A stretch of 64,000 nucleotides of DNA from Haladaptatus sp. R4 (lineage in GTDB: Archaea > Halobacteriota > Halobacteria > Halobacteriales > Haladaptataceae): assembly GCF_001625445.1 (NCBI RefSeq), contig NZ_LWHG01000021.1:372001-436000 (forward strand). Direction: 5' to 3'. Each line of letters begins with the position of its first letter. Position 1 is the first letter of the stretch. Below the pieces are notes generated by a model that ran no database searches, had not been told where the DNA came from, and worked only from the letters and a program-made list of their open reading frames with translations. The position numbers and the translations under genes are program-made. Shown piece after piece: positions 2,412 through 60,174 of this stretch.

Positions 2412-3644
2412 TCAACCCAGCAGCGCGTGAAGTTGACTGAAATCAACACAATACTGTTTGCCGTTGTAGGTGAAACAGAAGTCACGCGAACCGGGGGCGG
2501 CCGCGTTCTTCGTCCCCTTCTTCATCGCCGGATCGCTCGGTTTTTTCGCCTTCTTGGCCTTTTTAGCTTTCTTGGCCTTCTTTTTCGACTGCTTTGCCTT
2601 CTTGCTCTTTTTGGCCTTCTTTGCGTTCTTCTTCTTCGACTTGCCGCCGGTCTTCGAACTTCCGCCGGACGACGTCACGCCGGTTGCGGCCTGCTTCGCG
2701 GTCGTGGGTGCGGCCTTCGGCGCTTCGTGCGACGGGTTGCTGCCGACGTTCGTCGTCTCGACGTTGCCGATGAGGCTGCCTTTGATCTGCGAATCTGTGA
2801 CCTCGAACGTCGTGTGCGCCGCGACGAGCGCGGAGGCCCCGCCGTTGGTGTCCGCGTCGGTGCAGTCGATGTCGCAGTTCTCGAACGTGACGACGTCGCT
2901 CGTCGTCCCGTAGCCGTCGTAGACGCCGCGGGAGTTCACGACGCCGCCGTTGATCGGGTGGAGCGGAACGTCGTTCGTGTTGTAGATGACGGTATTCTTC
3001 ACCGTCGTGCCGTCCGTCGCCACGCGAAGGTGGCTGATGTTGTTGTTCTTCAGGAGACAGCCATCGAACGCCAGCGTCCCGCCGCCGCCGCTGGATTTGG
3101 CCGCGCCGCCCGCGTAAATCGCGTTGCCCGTCCAGCCGTTCATCGTGACGCCGGTGAGGTCGATGTGACCCGCGAAGGACGCCGGAATTCCGATCGCGCC
3201 CTTGCGAATCATGTCACCGGAGACGCCGTCGCCCATGTAGACGTGCTCGATGGTCCCGGTTCCCGACGCCGTGATGAGGTTCGGGTAGCCACCGAGGTTC
3301 TTCCCCGGCGGGTGGGGACCGCTCACGTCGGACGCGCCGCTGAAACCGACGTTGCGGATCGTCCAGTCGGATCCGCTCGCGATGATGCGAACGTCAGCGC
3401 CCGACGCGCTGATGTCGATGAGTTTGTTTTCGAACGTCTCGCCGCTCCCGACGGTGAACTGCTTCGCCGTGTTCGCGGGAATCGTGATCGTCTCGTACTC
3501 CTTCGCCGCGCCGAGACCGGTCGCAGCGCCAGCACCGGCGGCCGCAACCGCGGCCGTTCCGGTCAGTTTCAGATACGAACGGCGGTCGAACGAACTGCCG
3601 TCCGCTCCGCTATCGTTTTTTGTCGTACTGCAATCGCGTGCCAT
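2412..3644 (-). CDS. Tat-exported right-handed beta-helix protein with lysine-rich tail
   Basis: I chose the ATG at 3644 (MARDCSTTKN), giving 410 residues. An upstream ATG at 3704 adds 20 residues that do not look like leader sequence. A twin-arginine motif (RRSYLKLTG, from about residue 21) and a hydrophobic alanine/glycine stretch indicate Tat export. The body is rich in G, N, T and V with short repeated strands, as in parallel beta-helix proteins that bind or cut polysaccharide; I cannot name catalytic residues. Residues 331-368 are almost only K, A and S, in repeats such as KKAKKAKK, followed by a short end with two cysteines (FCFTYNGKQYC). Such a basic segment is unusual in a halophile surface protein. 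It may bind acidic glycans or the S-layer, which is inference. Confidence 0.85.
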   Translation of the reverse strand: MARDCSTTKNDSGADGSSFDRRSYLKLTGTAAVAAAGAGAATGLGAAKEYETITIPANTAKQFTVGSGETFENKLIDISASGADVRIIASGSDWTIRNVGFSGASDVSGPHPPGKNLGGYPNLITASGTGTIEHVYMGDGVSGDMIRKGAIGIPASFAGHIDLTGVTMNGWTGNAIYAGGAAKSSGGGGTLAFDGCLLKNNNISHLRVATDGTTVKNTVIYNTNDVPLHPINGGVVNSRGVYDGYGTTSDVVTFENCDIDCTDADTNGGASALVAAHTTFEVTDSQIKGSLIGNVETTNVGSNPSHEAPKAAPTTAKQAATGVTSSGGSSKTGGKSKKKNAKKAKKSKKAKQSKKKAKKAKKAKKAKKPSDPAMKKGTKNAAAPGSRDFCFTYNGKQYCVDFSQLHALLG

Positions 3645-3922
3645 GCGGTCTTCAATGCAAAGAGATCGATTAATATTCTTTCGGTGTCGTTCCACACATA
3701 TCAACTAATCTGAAAGTAACAACGAAATCGATGACTCGCTGGAATTATCATGATCGTTGTTCACATGGCTCTTTCGGTGTGGGTTCGGGTGAGGCGGATG
3801 AGAGCGATTACTCCGCCGTACGGCGTCCATAACAAAGCCACTCGGCCGATTTGATTGTCCCACCGTGAATTCGAGAACGCAACGAGGCCGCGAGCACCAC
3901 GCTTATCCACGGAACTACCGGA

Positions 3923-8380: not shown

Positions 8381-8758
8381 TTATTCGGACTTCGGTACGG
8401 TCACGCGGAGCGTTCCCGAGTCGGTCAGCGTCGCCGTCGCTTCGTTCGCATCGACCTTCGCGTCGGACGGGAGTTCGACCTCCCCGTCGAGCGACATCCC
8501 GCGACCGGGGAACACCATGTCGAACCCCTCGTGGAAGTCGCGGAAGCGGTCGATCCGAACGAGGACGGAGTCCTCGACGAATCGGACTTGCACGTCGCTT
8601 CCCGTCGCACCTGCCGCGTCGAACACGACGAGGTAGGCGTCCTCGCTTTCGAGCAGGTCGGCCGGGATGGGACGTGATTCCTGTACCTTGCTCGCGGCAC
8701 GGCCGACCTTCGATGCGACGGCCGTCACGGTCGAGCGCCCGAGGTCGCGGAGCGTCAT
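8381..8758 (-). CDS. Hsp20/alpha-crystallin-type small heat shock protein
   Basis: The 125-residue protein has a short N-terminal arm and then a beta-sandwich that resembles the alpha-crystallin domain: DAYLVVFDAAGATGSDVQVR, DSVLVRIDRFRD, and a closing LRVTVPK strand. Members of this family keep unfolding proteins soluble. The match is weaker than for classic Hsp20, since the usual A-x-x-x-G-V-L motif appears only as ATLTDSGTLRVTVPKSE. The start ATG overlaps the stop of the upstream zinc micro-protein gene by 4 bases, so the two form an operon on the minus strand. Confidence 0.8.
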   Translation of the reverse strand: MTLRDLGRSTVTAVASKVGRAASKVQESRPIPADLLESEDAYLVVFDAAGATGSDVQVRFVEDSVLVRIDRFRDFHEGFDMVFPGRGMSLDGEVELPSDAKVDANEATATLTDSGTLRVTVPKSE

Positions 8759-8913
8759 AGTTCGATGGCTTCGAGGCAATCGGTTTCGCCGCAGTACGGG
8801 CACTGGAAGTCGTCCACTCCCACGTCGTCCGGCATATCGTAGGTGTAGTGCATCTCGAACATGTCCATCTCGCAGTCGTCGTCCGTACACTTGACCTCAA
8901 GCGTCGCAGGCAT
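8755..8913 (-). CDS. 52-residue zinc micro-protein (two Cys pairs)
   Basis: The frame reads MPATLEVKCTDDDCEMDMFE and continues to CPYCGETDCLEAIEL before TGA at 8755-8757. The Cys pairs (C-x4-C, then CPYC with a following C) suggest a single zinc site. Small CPxCG-type zinc proteins are numerous in haloarchaea and mostly unassigned. It leads a two-gene operon with the Hsp20-like gene (4-base overlap). Confidence 0.8.
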   Translation of the reverse strand: MPATLEVKCTDDDCEMDMFEMHYTYDMPDDVGVDDFQCPYCGETDCLEAIEL

Positions 8914-9919
8914 ACGCGTGGATACGTACCGAACGGAAATAAACGCGCGGACTTCGGCTAGGATTGGTGGTTCGGGGAGTACGAGTTGTGGTTGGTTTTG
9001 GTTGTGTGATTGGAGTTACTGAGAAGATCACCTCGAAAGCCCCCACCTGCTCGCTACGAGTTGTTTCTGACTTCATCGAGAGAGCACACTACTGAGAACA
9101 CTACCTCGAAAGCCCCCGCCCGCTCGCGGCACCGGAAGACGTTCCGGCTCACATTCGTTCGCGGGCTGCGACTTCCGTGGTCACACTCACATTCGTTCGC
9201 GTGACCCGCTCAGTGACATCTCTCCGTCGGCACTTCGTGCCTTGGCAAGAGAAAAGCTCTTGCCTGCTCTCGTTCGCTCCTCTGTCGCTCACGAGAACTC
9301 CTCCGGGAGGGTTCACTGAGACGACCACAGTAAACGCGAGCGGGCGGCCCCTTTCATCCCTATCCCTACCGCTCCGCCTCCGCACCGTACCACGAGCCTC
9401 CCCAACCTCCTCGCTCCCTCCAGTCGCTCGTCCCTCGCGCGGGCGCACTGCCGTGCGCCTTCGCACGCCGGTTGGCTGGTCAATATCGCACCCGCCCCGT
9501 CCAACCGAGTGGCGCGCGCTGACGAGATGGCGAGGATAGCGAGGTTTCACAGAAACCTCGAAACGAGCGGCAACGCTGCCGAGCAACGCTCGGCAGGCAG
9601 CCAGACAGGGTCTGGCGACGCCCGCGAGCTAGCGCTCATCCGAGCCGTCTCGTCAGAATCGTGCGAGGGATGAGTGAGCGAGTGTAACGAGCGAAGGAAT
9701 CGGCTGGGGAGGCGTTGGTGCGGCCGCGAACGGGCGGGGGCTTTCTGGGTTGTCTTCTCAGTAGCTGTGTTCGCACCGGAATTAGAGTCGTTTCGTAGCG
9801 GGCGGGAGCTTTCTGGGTATTCATCGCAGTTGCTGCTACGTTCTTACCAGAGTTGGAGCCGTCCCGTCGCTGCGTTCGACGTAGTCACCGTTTTATCCGC
9901 CCAGTCACAAAAGCGGGTA
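8914..9919. repeat. Non-coding repeat island A with nested inverted ends
   Basis: There is no credible gene here: the open frames are arginine-rich shadows. The island core is 9031-9817. Outer arms CTCGAAAGCCCCC (from 9032) and GGGAGCTTTCTGGG (ending 9816), and inner arms at 9104-9130 and 9717-9749, are inverted copies of one another. A 22-bp segment (GCGAAGGAATCGGCTGGGGA plus GG) lies at 9691-9712 and recurs identically in islands B (39613-39634) and C (59685-59706). Perfect hairpins inside are GGCAAGAG/CTCTTGCC (9244-9264), CGAGGTTTC/GAAACCTCG (9540-9560) and CTGCCGAGC/GCTCGGCAG (9576-9596). The far right end (about 9888-9898, CCGTTTTATCC) holds a TATA-like site for the radical SAM gene. 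The island's function is unknown. Confidence 0.85.
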
Positions 9920-11647
9920 ATGACTGACCCCGCGACTCTCGACGTGACGCTCGTGGACGGCTACGTCGACGAACCGGCTCACTTCGGCGTGCCGCCGTAC
10001 ATCTCGACGTACCCGCGCTACACCGCCGGGGCGCTGGTGGACGCGGGAGTGCCGGAAGAGCAGATTACGTACCACACCATCGACGAACTCCGAGAGGACA
10101 ACTCGAAGTGGGCCGACGTGGCCGACGCCGACCTGTTCGTCTACATCGGCGGGATGACGGTGCCCGGCAAGTACGTCGGCGGGACGCCCGCCGAACCGGA
10201 CGAGGTGCGGAAGATGGCGTGGACCGCCGACGGCACGAGTCTGATGGGCGGCCCCGTCAAGTTCGGCGTCGGCGACGAGAACGCGGGCGGAACCCAGACC
10301 GAGCGCGACGACCTCGACTTCGACTTCGTGGCGAAGGGCGACGTGGAAGCCGCCGCCGCGGACCTCGTGGAGAGCGGTCTGGAGGGTTTCAACAACCGGA
10401 TGCGCGACAACGAGGAAATCGACCGCTGGGCGGAAGCGGGCGCGTTCGTCGTCGAACAGCACCCGAACCATCCGGACTACCTCATCTGCGAGATGGAGAC
10501 CTCGCGGGGGTGTCCCTACAGATGCTCGTTCTGCACGGAACCGCTGTACGGCAACCCGGCGTTCCGCGAACCCGAGTCCGTGATCGCGGAGGTTGACGGC
10601 CTCTCGAACCGCGGCGTCCGGCACTTCCGACTGGGCCGACAGGCCGACATCCTCGCCTACGGCGGAAACGGCGAGAAGCCCAACCCGGACGCGCTTCGGG
10701 AGTTGTACGGCGGGATTCGGGCGGTCGCGCCGGACCTCGGCACGCTCCACCTCGACAACATGAATCCCATCACCATCGTGGAGTGGCCCGAACTGTCCCG
10801 CGAGGGCATTCGGGTCATCGCCGAGCACAACACGCCGGGCGACACCGCCGCGTTCGGACTGGAATCGGCCGACCCCGTGGTGCAGGAGCAGAACAACCTG
10901 AACGTCTCCGCCGAGGAGTGTTTCCGAGCGGTGAAAATCGTCAACGAGGAGGCGGGATGGCGGCCAGGCGAGAGTTCGGAAGCGGCCCCGACGCACGGCC
11001 CCGACGCGGCGAACCGCCTTCCGAAGCTCCTGCCGGGAATCAACCTGCTCCACGGGTTGAAAGGCGAGCGGAAGGAGACGTTCGACCACAACCGCGAGTT
11101 CCTCGGGCGGGTGTACGACGAGGGGCTGATGCTCCGCCGGGTGAACATCCGGCAGGTGATGGCGTTCTCGGGGACCGAGATGAACTCCGTGGGGACCCAA
11201 ATCGCGGACGACCACAAGCGACTGTTCAAGCAGTACAAGAGCGAGGTCAGGGAGGAAATCGACAATCCGATGCTCCAGCGAGTCACCCCGCCGGGAACAG
11301 TCCTGCCCAACGTCCACCTCGAATACCATCAGGACGGTCGGACCTTCGGGCGACAACTCGGCACCTACCCGCTCCTCGTCGGGATTCCGGGGGAACGCGA
11401 ACTCGGACGAACGATGGACGTCGCCGTCGTGGACCACGGCTATCGCTCCGTCACGGGCGTTCCGTATCCGCTCGACGTGAACAGCGCGTCGATGGACGAA
11501 CTCACCGCGATTCCCGGCCTCGGCAAACAGCGCGCCGGAAACGTCATCGTCAACCGGCCGTACGAGACGCCGGACGACCTCGCCGAGACGGTGGACGTGG
11601 ATTTGAGCAAGTTCGCCGGGAGACCGGTGTCCAGAAACGCGGACTGA
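9920..11647 (+). CDS. Radical SAM protein with C-terminal helix-hairpin-helix domain
   Basis: The 575-residue protein carries the [4Fe-4S]-binding motif CPYRCSFC (C198, C202, C205) after a cobalamin-domain-like N-terminal half. The last 60 residues hold a helix-hairpin-helix segment (LDVNSASMDELTAIPGLGKQ) that resembles DNA- or RNA-binding units. Radical SAM enzymes cut S-adenosylmethionine to a 5'-deoxyadenosyl radical. The combination suggests modification of a nucleic acid or nucleoprotein, but the substrate is not known to me. I chose the ATG at 9920 because it lies about 25 bases after a TATA-like CCGTTTTATCC, as for a leaderless haloarchaeal transcript; the longer frame upstream runs into repeat DNA. 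Confidence 0.88.
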   Translation: MTDPATLDVTLVDGYVDEPAHFGVPPYISTYPRYTAGALVDAGVPEEQITYHTIDELREDNSKWADVADADLFVYIGGMTVPGKYVGGTPAEPDEVRKMAWTADGTSLMGGPVKFGVGDENAGGTQTERDDLDFDFVAKGDVEAAAADLVESGLEGFNNRMRDNEEIDRWAEAGAFVVEQHPNHPDYLICEMETSRGCPYRCSFCTEPLYGNPAFREPESVIAEVDGLSNRGVRHFRLGRQADILAYGGNGEKPNPDALRELYGGIRAVAPDLGTLHLDNMNPITIVEWPELSREGIRVIAEHNTPGDTAAFGLESADPVVQEQNNLNVSAEECFRAVKIVNEEAGWRPGESSEAAPTHGPDAANRLPKLLPGINLLHGLKGERKETFDHNREFLGRVYDEGLMLRRVNIRQVMAFSGTEMNSVGTQIADDHKRLFKQYKSEVREEIDNPMLQRVTPPGTVLPNVHLEYHQDGRTFGRQLGTYPLLVGIPGERELGRTMDVAVVDHGYRSVTGVPYPLDVNSASMDELTAIPGLGKQRAGNVIVNRPYETPDDLAETVDVDLSKFAGRPVSRNAD

Positions 11648-11993
11648 AAAAGGATTTTTCAGCGACGACGATTTTTCGGCGAGTGAGCGGCGCGAGCGCC
11701 GCCCACGAGCGAGAGGCCGGTGACAGGACCGCCAGTAACTGTCATCGGCACAATCGCCAGAAGTGAAATTGTCACAACCGCCAGAAGCGGCTATCGACAC
11801 ACCTGTCAGCTATCAGAAGCCGATTTAACCGCCAGCAATCGCCATTCTCGGCCAGCCACTAGCCGCTAGTACACTCTCCGGAAAATCGAAGATTTTCCGG
11901 GCCAAGGAACCCCCGGAGGGGGTAACGCCGTGCTTTTGGTCCAGATTTTTATCGAGGATCGCAGAGCGACCCTCGCAATAAAAAGGTGGTTCG
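11648..11993. repeat. Repeat family 2, copy 1: spaced ACCGCCAG units, hairpins and conserved GTGCTTTTGGTCCAG element
   Basis: No gene is visible. From left to right the stretch holds a 48-bp segment (11678-11725) repeated in inverted form at 12657-12704; several ACCGCCAG or AATCGCCAG units (11730-11840); a perfect hairpin CCGGAAAATC-GAA-GATTTTCCGG (within 11876-11903) identical to one at 46604-46631; a hairpin ACCCCC-GGA-GGGGGT; then GTGCTTTTGGTCCAG (11930-11944) followed by a stem-loop closed by TTTTTAT/ATAAAAA (11946-11984) and GGTGGTTCG. The stop codon of the TRAM gene (11994-11996) touches its right edge. Confidence 0.85.
11930..11993 (+). ncRNA. Candidate structured RNA/DNA element, copy 1
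   Basis: The conserved flank GTGCTTTTGGTCCAG is followed by a stem: TTTTTAT (11946-11952) pairs with ATAAAAA (11978-11984), CGAGG (11953-11957) with CCTCG (11971-11975), and TCGC (11959-11962) with GCGA (11966-11969), with loop AGA. Then comes GGTGGTTCG. The copy at 46657-46748 has the same flanks but an entirely different inner stem that also pairs. Strand is assigned by the flank direction only. Whether it is transcribed is unknown; it could also be a terminator for the convergent neighbours. Confidence 0.45.
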
Positions 11994-12425
11994 TTAGAAC
12001 TCTTCCTCGATGATTTCGCCGACGGCGAAGTTCGATTTCACTTCCGTGATTTCGACCTTCACGCGTTCGCCGATCTCCGCGCCGGGAACGATGATGACGT
12101 ACCCGCGTTCGACGCGGGCGATGCCATCTCCCTGTTTGCCGATGTCTTCGACTTCGACGTAGCGGATTTCACCGGCTTCGACGGGTGGCTGTGGTTCCGA
12201 CGAGACGGAACTGCCCGTACTCGGTTGCGTCGAAGTCGCGGTCGTTTCTTGTTCTTCGTCCGATTCCTCTTCCGTTTCTCGCGAGATTAGCGCGACACGG
12301 TAGGTTTCTCCCGGTTCGACCGAACCCGTATCGATTTCGCGACGTGGTATCGAGACAACGTATTCGTCGCCGTTGAGAGTAACATCACCGCTGAACAGAC
12401 ACAGGAGTTTATCAGAGATTTCCAA
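11994..12425 (-). CDS. TRAM-domain RNA-binding protein
   Basis: The C-terminal 65 residues form a TRAM beta-barrel: GEIRYVEVEDIGKQGDGIAR, then VERGYVIIVPGAEIGERVKV. Small TRAM proteins are common in haloarchaea and are thought to act as RNA chaperones or cold-shock-like proteins. I chose the TTG start at 12425 (MEISDKLLCLFSGDV...) because a GGAGGT Shine-Dalgarno sequence lies 9 bases upstream and homologues begin at this point. That gives 143 residues; the ATG at 12485 would add a non-conserved 20-residue extension. A Ser/Thr/Glu-rich linker separates the two halves. The gene sits between inverted copies of a 48-bp repeat. Confidence 0.85.
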   Translation of the reverse strand: MEISDKLLCLFSGDVTLNGDEYVVSIPRREIDTGSVEPGETYRVALISRETEEESDEEQETTATSTQPSTGSSVSSEPQPPVEAGEIRYVEVEDIGKQGDGIARVERGYVIIVPGAEIGERVKVEITEVKSNFAVGEIIEEEF

Positions 12426-12732
12426 GGCTCGTAGACCTCCACGTGAAACCAAGTAGTCAACCATTAAAGAATTATCGAACGCCACCGTTTGCTGCCGTTA
12501 GAAGCCGAAATCCACACGATTGGCGCGGGTTTGGGCCTACTTTCGTGAAAACGTCCGAACCAGTAGCTTGCATCATCCCCCTTCCGAAAAACCGGAAATC
12601 CTTCGATAGAAGCGCCAGGGACAGGTAATCGTCCGGTTCGTTGATTTCGGCAGCCGTGTCACCGGCCTCTCGCTCGTGGGCGGTGCTCGCGCCGTCCACT
12701 CGCCGTGAGAAGATCACTACGCCGTGAGAAGA
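12426..12732. repeat. Intergenic stretch with inverted 48-bp repeat copy and 19-bp tandem repeat
   Basis: Bases 12657-12704 are the inverted counterpart of 11678-11725 (about 45 of 48 match), so the TRAM gene is bracketed by an inverted repeat. Directly to the right is a 19-bp unit (CGCCGTGAGAAGATCACT plus one base) in two tandem copies (12701-12719, 12720-12738). The second copy reaches the stop codon of the next gene. The remainder is the TRAM promoter side and shows no gene. Confidence 0.8.
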
Positions 12733-38150: not shown

Positions 38151-39188
38151 ATGGCCGAAATCGACGTGGAACCCGTCGAGCGAATCGACGAGGACGTCGT
38201 CCCCGCGGGGATCGATGCACCGAAGTACGTGTTGTACGGCGGCAAAGGCGGCGTCGGGAAGACGACGATGGCCGCCGCGACGGCGCTGGCGAGCGCGCGC
38301 GATGGAACGCGAACGCTCGTCGTCTCGACCGACCCGGCACACTCCCTGTCGGACACGTTCGAGCGCGACATTCCGGCGGAAGCGACGCGCATTCGGGAGG
38401 ATATTCCCCTCTTCGCGGCGGAGATCGATCCGGACGCCGAACTGGAGGAACAGGCCGGAATGATGGGCGAAGGGAGTCCGCTCGGCGGCATGCTCGGCGA
38501 CGATGAGGACGGGCCGATGGGGTCGCTCCTCGGCGGGGCGATGCCCGGGGCGGACGAGGCCGCCGCGATGCAGAAGTTACTCGAATTTCTGGACGACGAG
38601 CGGTTCGACCGCGTCGTCGTGGACACCGCGCCGACGGGACACACCCTCCGATTGCTGGAACTGCCCGAACTGATGGACACGATGGTGGGCCGGATGATGA
38701 GCCTGCGCCAGCGATTGAGCGGGATGATGGACGGCGTCAAGGACGTGTTCGGCGGCGGTGCGGACCCCGAGGAAGGGATGGAGAACCTCGACGTGCTCAA
38801 GGAACGGATTCAAAAACTCCGGACGACGCTGCGGGACCCCTCGAAAACGGACTTCCGCGTCGTCATGATCCCCGAGGAGATGAGCGTCTTCGAGTCCAAG
38901 CGCCTGCTCGCGCGACTGGAGGAGTTCGGAATCCCGGTCGGAACCGTCGTCGTCAACCGCGTGATGGAGAACCTCGCGGACGTGACCGATTCGGTCGATT
39001 CGGATCGGTTCGCCACCCCGAACCTCGACGACTGTGAGTTCTGCCAACAGCGCTGGGAGGTCCAGCAGGGCGCGCTTCGGGAAGCACAGGACGTGTTCCG
39101 CGGGCACACCATCAAACGCGTTCCGCTGTTCGCCGACGAAGTTCGCGGCGAGGAGATGTTGCGCGTCGTCGCCGCCTGTTTGGACTGA
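38151..39188 (+). CDS. Get3/ArsA-family ATPase
   Basis: The 345-residue deviant-Walker-A P-loop protein has [10 protein letters not shown] (30-39), switch [13 protein letters not shown], switch [16 protein letters not shown], and the dimer-bridging Cys pair CEFC (C295, C298) seen in tail-anchored-protein targeting Get3/TRC40. A methionine-rich segment ([15 protein letters not shown] to [15 protein letters not shown]) resembles the groove that binds a transmembrane helix. Get3-like membrane-protein targeting is more likely than arsenite export because no ars genes are near. Confidence 0.9.
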
Positions 39189-39926
39189 TCCGACGGGAAC
39201 GCCAACATTTTACTGAGAACATAACTACCGCGACGACGACGTAGAAAGCCCCCACTTGCTACGAGGTGTCTGTATTTTGAGACTGCAAGTACCGAGCCGC
39301 ATGAATTACCGCATCCGCCCCGCAACCGCTTGCTCGCGGCTGTGCCGCTCGCTTGCGAGGTTCCGGAGGAACCTCGTCTACCGCCCACACGCCTCCCCAG
39401 CCGATTCGCTCCGACGCTCCTTCCGTCGCGCGCCGTGCGGTTGAACCGTATCGTGCAGCCTATCCAACCGAGTGGCGCGCGGGGCAGCAGGCCCGAGGAT
39501 AGCGGTCATCCGAGGGTCTGATTGGCTATCGCGCGAGGGATGACTGAGCGACTGAAATCCCCGTGAGCGGTAGCGAACGGGAGCACGGAAGAGCGGAGCT
39601 CTTCCGGAGGGAGCGAAGGAATCGGCTGGGGAGGATGTGGTGCGGGGCGGTGGTGTGGGTGGTTGAAAGGGGCGCCGCTCGCGTGTATCGTGGGCGTCTC
39701 GGCGACCTCTCTTGGTGAAGACGAGCGAAACGAGTCGAACCAAGATGTCGGTCTAGCGGCCGCGAGCGGGCGGGGGCTTTCGAGGCGGTCTACGTCCCAG
39801 CAACTGCACTCGTAAAACAATCAAAAACAGCACAACGAAGCGAGCGGGCGGGGACTTTCGAGGTAATTATCTCCGGAACTGCAATCACAAAAGAATCAAA
39901 CACGCCCACTCGTCGCGCTTCCCGAA
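39189..39926. repeat. Non-coding repeat island B with nested inverted ends
   Basis: No gene is visible. The island core is 39243-39862. The left arm GAAAGCCCCCACTTGCTACG (39244-39263) mirrors the right arms GCGGGCGGGGGCTTTCGAGG (39766-39785) and GCGGGCGGGGACTTTCGAGG (about 39844-39863). CCTCCCCAGCCGATTCGC (39392-39409) is the reverse complement of the core of the 22-bp segment at 39613-39634 shared with islands A and C. Perfect hairpins are CGAGGTTCC-GGA-GGAACCTCG (39356-39376) and CGGAAGAGC-GGA-GCTCTTCCG (39586-39606). CGAGGGATGACTGAGCGA (from about 39533) has counterparts in A and C. Confidence 0.85.
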
Positions 39927-46254: not shown

Positions 46255-46783
46255 GTATCTGCCATTGGAGTCCTCCTACTAAACTACTCCGTCAGACAGA
46301 CATCAGAATTATTATGCTTAAGTTCTATACCGGGCCGGAAGTCGGGTACTGAGACGATCATCATACGTTCTACTCTATCGACTGTTCTACTGTCCCTCGG
46401 AACCTACCACGATCTGATTAGTCCAACAGGCGATGAGTCGTGAGCGACCGTACGGGAGCGGTAGGCCGGTGTCACAACCGCCCAGAAATCTCGCATTGAC
46501 ACAACCGCCAGAGTCAGCAACCGACACAGCCGCCAGTCACCAGAAATTCCATCGAAAGACCTGCGGTCTTTCGAGCCATCAAAATCGCACCACGATTTTG
46601 AGACTCCGGAAAATCGAAGATTTTCCGGGCCGACGACCGACCACCGGGAGGGAGGAGTGCTTTTGGTCCAGCTTTTACAGGGAAGCGACGGCGGTTTCGT
46701 GTCGTTTACGAAACCGCCGTCAACTTCCCGTCGTAAAAGGTGGGTTCGAAAAGCATAATCCGCGCCCTCGCAAACGCCACGGT
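46255..46783. repeat. Repeat family 2, copy 2: ACCGCCAG units, three short hairpins and the GTGCTTTTGGTCCAG element
   Basis: No gene is visible. ACACAACCGCCAG-type units occur at about 46475-46540. Three perfect hairpins follow: TCGAAAGACC-TGC-GGTCTTTCGA (46552-46574), CAAAATCG-CACCA-CGATTTTG (46580-46600) and CCGGAAAATC-GAA-GATTTTCCGG (46606-46628). The last lies in a 28-bp block identical to 11876-11903. Then comes the conserved element at 46657-46748. The left part (46255-46430) is the AT-rich promoter side of the membrane-protein gene; the right end holds the promoter of the DUF5789 gene. Confidence 0.85.
46657..46748 (+). ncRNA. Candidate structured RNA/DNA element, copy 2
   Basis: GTGCTTTTGGTCCAG (46657-46671) is followed by a stem CTTTTAC/GTAAAAG (46672-46678 with 46733-46739), GGGAAG/CTTCCC (46680-46685 with 46724-46729) and a perfect 13-bp helix (46687-46699 with 46709-46721), and then GGTGGGTTCG. 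Flanks match copy 1 at 11930-11993 while the inner stem is unrelated in sequence yet fully paired. It lies 35 bp before the DUF5789 start, so here it could be a 5' leader. Confidence 0.45.
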
Positions 46784-59201: not shown

Positions 59202-60174
59202 AGTAGGGCGTATGGAAGGGGGACCGAAAAGTCATGTGGGCCACGGCAACGACGGCGGGGAACACGGCCAGTTGCTTTTGGGTATCGTGTGGGTTCGATT
59301 GGAATTGCAGGAAGGTAGACTGCCTCGAAAGCCCCCGCCCGGTCCCACGAACGACGAAGGAGTGAGTGGACGCTGTCGAAGCGTTGCTCCGACTGAACTT
59401 GCTACGCACAGGAGAGTTTGATTCTGGTTTTGTGATTTCAGTAGCCGAGCAACACTGAAGACCGCAACCGCCTCCGCACTGCAACCGCACCGCCCACAGT
59501 CCTCCCCAGCCGATTCCTCGCTTACGCTCGTCATCCCTCGCACGAACCTTCCGAGACGGTTCGACCGACCGATGGTCTCGCCTCTCCAGCGCGCGCCACC
59601 CGGCGGGACGGACTGTGCAATACTGACCAACCACACGGCGCGCGCGTTTCTCGCGCGCGAGGGATGAGTGAGCGACCAGCGGGAGCGAAGGAATCGGCTG
59701 GGGAGGCGTGTGGTGCGTTGTAGGGGAGGTGCAGTCGGGTGGGATGAAAGGGGCCGTCCGTTCGCGCTCGTTTAGTCGTCTGTGCAGGCAACTATTTTGA
59801 CCGAGCTGTGCGGAGAGGTCAAAATATCCTGCACAGCGGTCACGCGAGCGAAGTTCCCGTGAGCCGTGCGAACGGGAGCCAGCAAGAGCGAAGCGCTTGC
59901 GCTGCGAGGGTGACCACGGAAGTCGCAGCCCGCGCAACGAAGTGAGCAGGAACGTCTTCGGGCGACCGCGAACGGGCGAGGGCTTTCGAGGTCTGCCTCT
60001 CAGTAACTGCAATCACACACCAACCAAACACGTCTCGTAGCGAACGGTCGGGGGCTTTCTGGGTCTTCTTCGTAACGACGGTTGTAGAAAGACCAGAGCA
60101 GGAGTCGTCTCGGGGCAAATTCAGTCAGAGCCAGGATCAGTCAAAGTCACGCACTCGTCGTCGCCCTCATCGTG
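59202..60174. repeat. Non-coding repeat island C with nested inverted ends
   Basis: No gene is visible. The island core is 59323-60063. The left arm CTCGAAAGCCCCCGCCCGGT (59324-59343) mirrors the right arms GAACGGGCGAGGGCTTTCGA (59970-59989) and GAACGGTCGGGGGCTTTCTG (60042-60061). CCTCCCCAGCCGATTCCTCG (59501-59520) faces the shared 22-bp segment at 59685-59706. A nested double stem occurs at 59780-59836: CTGTGCAGG/CCTGCACAG outside and ATTTTGACC/GGTCAAAAT inside, around a 14-base loop. GATGAAAGGGGCCG (from about 59742) also occurs, inverted, in island A near 9346. Confidence 0.85.

Follow-up and report, generated by a model that had tools for sequence, protein, structure and literature searches.

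The intergenic islands of Haladaptatus sp. R4 are mosaics of copies, usually two and inverted, of a smaller element. Our data show the sequence and fold of this unit, the selection of its folded purine strand, and differences between relatives in which sites are occupied and which are empty. The explanation that we favour, and which we hold to be about evenly poised between right and wrong, is that the unit represents a non-autonomous, non-coding, interspersed family of haloarchaeal elements, and that the islands are accretions of its units of about 230-390 bp.

Three islands in one window

The window, that is, the whole 64-kb stretch of Haladaptatus sp. R4 DNA that was analysed, belongs to contig C21 of the 4.9-Mb genome and contains three islands, A, B and C, in gaps that gene prediction delimits at 1006, 738 and 1057 bp. 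A first-pass annotation of the sequence had singled them out by common arms, an identical segment, shared blocks, and a length and structure that encode nothing plausible. The arm GAAAGCCCCCGCCCG, with up to two mismatches, indeed matches nine places in the window, every one of them within A, B or C (shuffled-sequence control: mean 0.49, largest 4). The identical segment, given as 22 bp, is an exact 24-mer, GAGCGAAGGAATCGGCTGGGGAGG, found at 9689-9712, 39611-39634 and 59683-59706, with a shuffle expectation of 0. Both blocks, GAGGGATGA[CG]TGAGCGA and GATGAAAGGGG, are present in the islands, but not each block in each island. At an E-value of 0.1, Pfam gave no match for six ORFs within the three islands, and a codon model called no gene within the gaps; the possibility that the islands are decayed genes was rejected on these grounds. 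Their components are as follows.

8914-9919: gap with island A, between divergent neighbours, a DUF7559 gene (8755-8913, minus strand) and a radical SAM gene (9920-11647, plus strand)
9035-9132, plus strand: pair of left arms of A, GAAAGCCCCC at 9035 and again at 9108, at a distance of 73 bp
9343-9480, minus strand: left element of A, with F box (about 9343-9359), G box (9398-9409, variant CTCCCCAACCTC), HP1 and D box
9511-9745, plus strand: right element of A, with 5' end GGCGCGCGCTG, P1/HP2, D box, HP1, G box and arm
9669-9701, plus strand: HP1 of A (GAT...ATC), a tandem G.A mismatch hairpin, entered in alignment A2 as row 9658-9712
9799-9817, plus strand: outer right arm of A, where the 3' end occurs a second time
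39189-39926: gap with island B, between convergent neighbours, an ArsA-type ATPase gene (plus strand) and a short-chain dehydrogenase gene (minus strand)
39474-39781, plus strand: right full-length element of B, with 5' end GGCGCGCG, D box (about 39530) and long HP1
39845-39859, plus strand: outer right arm of B
59324-59597, minus strand: left element of C, with 5' end near 59597, D box (about 59531), HP1, G box (about 59502) and arm (59327-59341)
59637-59987, plus strand: right full-length element of C, with P1, D box (about 59654), HP1 and G box (59694-59706)
60045-60059, plus strand: outer right arm of C; the inner one lies 72 bp away

Island A fits the span of 9031-9817 first proposed for it, its left repeat unit beginning near 9017. 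In the two left arms, the 3' end of the left element is repeated in tandem. This element has the minus strand as its purine strand and carries a K-type P1/HP2 on the side that faces the centre. The right element bears the arm GGGCGGGGGCTTTC at 9731-9745; the F box (GAAAGGGG) is missing from this half of A, and the left half of B has a lone G box. The right element of B continues with a G box (39622-39634), an F box (about 39663), P3 and an arm (39767-39781), and that of C with the F box GAAAGGGG at 59746, a long-insert P3 and an arm (59973-59987). Doubled arms, spaced 68-78 bp apart, occur on one or both sides of the islands. The arms, initially taken for island ends, are the 3' end of a smaller element, often tandemly repeated, and the island itself is not the unit.

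The window has some further features of its own. The gene to the left of B (38151-39188, plus strand) has an ArsA-type anion-transporting ATPase as its product. A 57-nt inverted repeat (89%) at 11677-11733 and 12649-12705, with 915 nt between its arms, encloses a TRAM-domain gene (11994-12485, minus strand). A second repeat, CTCCGGAAAATCGAAGATTTTCCGGGCC, lies at 11876-11908 and 46604-46636 and forms a hairpin with a GAA triloop; the region of about 46500-46740 matches several further places in the R4 genome and in relatives. Positions 2501-3000 show an extreme AT skew (-0.54) within an ORF (2412-3704, minus strand) that has no Pfam match.

Islands across the R4 genome

By gene prediction and a motif scan, island parts were located in 44 intergenic gaps of the R4 genome. 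These gaps have a median length of 811 bp, as against 106 bp for the 338 other gaps. Two stray motif matches inside genes look like chance. BLAST of island A against the genome returned 223 matches, and the arm pattern 75 against 4 for the reversed pattern; the copies are therefore not confined to the window. A scan with seven blocks gave the order outer arms, X hairpin, F, G, D and centre, followed by mirrored D, G, F and arms; some islands are one half only, the arm is repeated one to three times per side as a tandem unit of 68-78 bp, and in 19 islands the G boxes are inverted relative to each other. Four R4 contigs end in or beside islands (C8 and C28 at their starts, C9 and C11 at their ends), so that islands may break the assembly.

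The best match of an island half was never the other half of the same island (0/38). Furthermore, no two islands are at least 85% identical over 200 bp or more, and modules of 60-190 bp reach 95-98%. Taken together, halves that are never each other's best match and the lack of island pairs at 85% indicate that the islands are mosaics, neither copies of a master island nor fold-back products. The latter observation also implies that whole islands have not been copied recently; island B has no close donor.

The repeat unit

Read on its purine strand, the unit is 5'-GGCGCGCGCTG (P1/HP2) CGYGCGAGGGATGA (HP1) RTCGGYTGGGGAGG ... TGAAAGGGG (P3) GGGGCTTTC-3'. A fuller reading of the boxes has a variable HP2 and a variable HP1, the latter followed by RTCGGYTGGGGAGGNNTGTGG, a linker, TGAAAGGGG, P3, whose insert is often about 95 nt, and GGGGGCTTTCGAGG. 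The conserved boxes are GCGAGGGATGA and TCGGYTGGGGAGG, and G-D cores gathered from other species revealed a conserved element far outside Haladaptatus. In 86 elements, the bases after GAAAGGGG pair with those before GGGGGCTTT to form P3 (pairing score 10.33; shuffled mean 9.11, largest 9.33), which identifies the arm of the first-pass annotation as the 3' strand of P3 together with the conserved end. Where both ends were found, outside the R4 genome, the unit measures 233-390 bp, and about 230-390 bp overall. A short form stops after the G box and a tail, and the F-P3 part occurs alone in another genus, often as inverted pairs 22-30 bp apart. The unit starts with GGCGCG and ends with CTTTC, and neither is an inverted repeat of the other; the arms of an island are inverted, but they belong to two units. 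Hence there are no terminal inverted repeats, and palindromes lie near both termini, P1/HP2 at the 5' end and P3 at the 3' end.

A hairpin of alternating Watson-Crick and G.A pairs

HP1 is a helix in which Watson-Crick steps of 2 bp alternate with tandem G.A mismatches; in most cases a GNA triloop caps it. Its statistics rest on 138 distinct hairpins among the matches listed, with at most ten places per genome for all but the last genomes. The exact search pattern has fixed boxes, so that the outermost HP1 pairs are forced, and our shuffle test uses only free stem positions. In the 46 hairpins of the commonest length among those listed, 237 of 276 free stem positions are Watson-Crick, compared with a mean of 128 and a maximum of 165 when the arms were shuffled among elements (1000 trials). 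The tandem G.A mismatches are retained in 40-46 of these 46 hairpins, and GNA stands at the centre of 77 of the 105 odd-length hairpins among those listed. Alignment A2, 17 rows chosen by their boxes and one hairpin length (6 of 23 candidates, with another hairpin type, were excluded), has 95.4% of its cells paired, which falls to 27-45% when the partner is slid by 1-3 columns; 32 cells changed on both sides, against 11.8 in shuffled controls.

Wobble pairs in the same 46 hairpins are asymmetrical: on the purine strand, G.T or T.G occurs 22 times and A.C or C.A four times. This excess indicates that the purine strand is the selected, folded one. With RNA energies, the purine strand of the hairpin L190 gives the exact consensus fold (-10.3 kcal/mol) and that of island C gives it in part; the complement does so in neither case. 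Folding with DNA energy parameters did not recover the HP1 structure, which counts against an easy choice of single-stranded DNA over RNA. In DNA, too, exceptional stability is a property of adjacent sheared G.A pairs and of GNA loops such as that of d(GCGAAGC); in RNA, GNRA tetraloops would be preferred. On these grounds we lean, weakly, towards single-stranded DNA.

A structured RNA had been among three guesses of the first-pass annotation, beside a non-autonomous mobile element and a chromosome-organising site. According to this explanation, the purine strand would be transcribed, by itself as a non-coding RNA or within mRNAs, and would act as RNA; both the exact consensus fold of L190 under RNA energies and the tolerance of G.T (G.U) pairs on that strand agree with it. 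However, a TATA-like box lies at the expected distance upstream of the 5' end in only 1 of 40 elements. In 32 intergenic cases (L228-L257), the upstream gene runs in the same direction as the purine strand only 20 times, and at the g23 locus, described below, that strand is antisense to both neighbouring genes. Moreover, no match at the gathering score was found in Rfam 15, and a relaxed E-value gave one chance-level match far under the cut-off. The element is structured, as had been supposed; with no promoter before its 5' end and a free orientation to genes, a role as free RNA is the less likely part of that guess, and we consider the explanation as a whole unlikely. Two more specific candidates were set aside. 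The 44 island gaps (23 tandem, 13 convergent, 8 divergent) show no significant bias of gene orientation relative to the other gaps (177, 79 and 82), and a cis-acting UTR or terminator was rejected on this result and the 20 of 32 cases above. A hammerhead ribozyme, prompted by the CTGACGA...GAAA look of some R4 copies, was dropped because the elements of other genera do not have it.

Distribution among haloarchaea

An exact pattern of the core was found in 128 of 391 Halobacteria genomes, covering 39 of 84 genera, and the reversed pattern in none, which bears out the statement in the first-pass annotation that similar tracts exist in other haloarchaea. A covariance model, R1, matched at least 84 of 145 genomes; the candidates that it scored in each genome were limited in number (39 in this run), so that its counts are lower bounds. 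When 295 genomes were sampled across the phylum, the exact pattern matched 15, all of them Halobacteria, and none of the 235 genomes outside the class. Sixteen of 20 named genomes had matches, up to 75 in Haladaptatus litoreus and 65 in Natrinema zhouii; Natrinema gelatinilyticum, Halogeometricum limi, Halostella pelagica and Halomicrococcus gelatinilyticus had none. Numbers swing widely within genera: Natrinema genomes have 0 to 65 copies, and those of genus g2, by inference Halorussus, 0 to 55.

No viral contig and no phage matched, and 7 of 72,556 plasmid records did; the phage and plasmid searches were made with island A as the query, which favours close relatives. Viral or plasmid carriage was rejected on these counts. 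In two genomes, arm matches concentrate on the largest contigs: G003 has 33 of its 35 on two contigs (52% of the genome), and G004 has 21 of its 22 on one contig (69% of the genome). We infer from their size that these element-bearing contigs are the chromosome.

The arrangement of copies varies between genomes. HP1 cores are paired 3' to 3' in G041 (C1:1634784/1634944 and C1:2756219/2756353) and in G409 (C1:470404/470570), opposite to the island pairs of the window, which are 5' to 5'. At L316, L319 and L320, in two genera, HP1-like hairpins directly adjoin tRNA genes and are preceded by a partial tRNA repeat (GGACTCGCGGGG), which may be chance or an integration scar; the R1 matches beside these tRNA genes may themselves be chance.

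Dispersal to unrelated sites

Of the 40 matches listed for genome G059, 18 start at the same query base, position 31 (the GGCGCGCG 5' end), in unrelated flanks. Six pairs of copies, picked for similar-looking cores, were compared. Three lie in unrelated flanks: a G059 pair is 95.6% identical over 137 bp, a G011 pair 98.4% over 127 bp, and a full-length G074 pair 82% over 231 bp, from GGCGCG to GGGGCTTTC. The G018 pair belongs to a 4-kb duplication and was excluded, and those of G041 (57 bp) and G146 (69%) were uninformative. At the site of island B, none of eight related Haladaptatus genomes has an island; three of the eight hold isolated near-matches to one or two boxes, with no arm and no F box. 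Short empty counterparts of 10, 51 and 133 bp were found in a relative for three more R4 islands.

Near-identical copies with a sharp 5' end, together with occupied and empty sites, show that the element disperses, either as single units or as the P1-HP1-G part alone, to unrelated sites. The guess of a mobile element is thus the favoured one of the three. Against it, no mobilising enzyme was found and no target duplication is visible. The latter had been proposed as a check; none is seen at the copies in unrelated flanks or at the empty sites, where the flanks are too diverged, and 3' boundaries vary.

Possible upkeep in place

At the g23 locus, a site in genus g23 that was compared in 24 genomes, the element is present in 10 and G320 has only the F-P3 part. 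Twelve others lack the full element, and one genome gave no match to the locus. The element sits between two co-directional genes. In seven of the 12 empty junctions, which were read, these genes overlap at TGATG (six cases) or are separated by a few tens of bases (one case). Alignment A3 comprises the 10 genomes with the element and G320, G381 being left out. In these 11 orthologous copies P3 is 97.9% paired, and 7 of its 17 pairs changed on both sides.

At site A, Haladaptatus sp. DYF46, which has the nearest named orthologue of the gene beside A (96% amino-acid identity), carries an island, and three other Haladaptatus species carry one G-D half-element each, the gap there being about 250-300 bp long. 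Judging from this comparison, an older single copy seems to be the origin of A. The compensatory changes at orthologous sites and the half-elements kept at site A suggest upkeep in place. Gene conversion could be an alternative source of this apparent upkeep. As a parasite has no need of upkeep, the observation counts against a pure parasite.

Upkeep, together with the intergenic and replicon bias, keeps alive another explanation, in which the islands are host chromosomal sites resembling the BIMEs of enterobacteria: paired inverted intergenic repeats that either serve as binding sites for a chromosome or topology protein or fold when single-stranded at replication forks. With an inverted pair, the lagging template would present one purine strand able to fold, from whichever side the fork arrives. 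Copies are strictly intergenic, save the two stray matches, lie mostly on the largest replicon pieces and are nearly absent from the mobile records searched, and their structure is retained at orthologous sites. The 0/38 result fits as well, since a pair would be maintained without being a perfect palindrome. On the other hand, copy numbers that drop to 0 within a genus argue against an essential role, and most islands are not common to close relatives (8 of the 44 R4 islands matched an island among 40 regions fetched from G003 and G004). The bias to the largest replicon pieces and the structure kept in place leave the earlier guess of a chromosome-organising site standing as a minority view, to which we give distinctly less than an even chance.

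The same data bear on whether the islands are a by-product of DNA synthesis, nested palindromes without function that arose by fold-back copying on GNA mini-hairpins. GNA-loop hairpins are in fact nested within some HP1, and at L337 a 60-bp tandem duplication of the 3' end has arisen in place, which suggests how arm arrays may arise. Nevertheless, the halves of an island are never each other's best matches, and boxes conserved across the class and compensatory changes require selection. HP1 covariation, the 0/38 halves and the P3 changes at orthologous sites largely refute this explanation, which we regard as scarcely credible.

Discussion

If the islands are accretions of an interspersed element, the unit would be recognised, and moved or copied in trans, as a folded single purine strand, with single-stranded DNA the more likely substrate than RNA. 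Pairing of inverted copies, exchange of modules of 60-190 bp and tandem duplication of the 3' end could then build the nested palindromic islands of Haladaptatus. Some old copies would be held in place by selection, and the element may be partly domesticated.

More specifically, and tentatively enough that we think it more probably wrong than right, the selected form throughout the class might be a folded single DNA strand, built as a helix in which Watson-Crick steps alternate with sheared tandem G.A pairs, with GNA mini-hairpin loops and with G-tracts facing each other across P3. This strand would be read by an unnamed archaeal enzyme acting on single-stranded DNA, and be partly domesticated as a paired chromosomal site. 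Possibly the G-tracts across P3 and the G box together form a quadruplex, a structure that the multimolar potassium inside haloarchaeal cells would favour.

The mobilising enzyme would act in trans, and this analysis found no candidate for it. The IS200/TnpA_REP type of transposase (PF01797) has no match in the R4 genome and is present in 11 of 20 element-rich genomes as against 15 of 20 genomes without model matches; an IS200/REP-type (RAYT) transposase was thus discarded as the general mobiliser. A related possibility is that the element is a palindrome-associated transposable element (PATE) derived from IS605/IS1341, as in Haloquadratum walsbyi. It has no terminal inverted repeats, has palindromes near both ends and is too short to code, in keeping with the definition of PATEs (PMC3119063), which also includes the absence of a target duplication; none is visible at the copies in unrelated flanks. 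Yet the flanks of two TnpB genes, from Halorussus and Haladaptatus, have no BLAST similarity to the elements (E 1e-3), neither TnpB has a tblastn match in the 110 loci compared, and R4 has no TnpA; a derivation of this kind appears very unlikely.

The element reaches tens of copies in some haloarchaeal genomes and is unnamed in the libraries searched; in the open-licence literature searched, we did not find it described. The fold of HP1 is unusually well defined for a dispersed repeat. If an enzyme that recognises single-stranded DNA exists, this would be a new dispersal route in Archaea; if a chromosome protein binds the islands, they would be BIME-like sites in haloarchaea. Either reading explains the islands as mosaics of one unit.

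Several known systems invite comparison. With the MITEs and SMRs of Haloquadratum the element shares being non-autonomous, short, present in many copies and gathered in conglomerates (PMC3119063). Both of these are defined there by terminal inverted repeats, the mobiliser of SMRs being given as unknown, whereas the element runs from GGCGCG at its 5' end to GGGGCTTTC at its 3' end without such repeats. PATEs, by the definition in the same source, have no terminal inverted repeats, palindromes near the termini and ends related to IS605; likeness extends to being non-coding, heterogeneous and in many copies, to a haloarchaeal host and to end palindromes (PMC3119063). Unlike PATEs as described there, the element has inner conserved boxes, a tandem-G.A hairpin, class-wide conservation and inverted pairs that form islands, and no IS605/IS1341-like ends were found in comparison with the two TnpB elements.

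The RNA families of Rfam resemble it in their covarying helices, G.U tolerance and conserved unpaired boxes; the element differs from them in having no match, no promoter and no fixed orientation, and many copies per genome. REP sequences and REPINs have short units of about 20-40 bp, in a system with a TnpA_REP/RAYT transposase and a GTAG-type tag. Like the REPs, BIMEs and REPINs covered in (PMC8266576), the element is an intergenic, dispersed, structured repeat with strand-specific hairpins beside a conserved motif, inverted pairs and mosaics. It departs from them in its unit of 230-390 bp, its archaeal host and the lack of a PF01797 protein in R4 and in 9 of 20 element-rich genomes. Going by what these sources describe, the PATEs of Haloquadratum are the closest named family in anatomy and REPINs and BIMEs the closest in arrangement; the element works like a PATE or a REPIN, and we assign it to neither.
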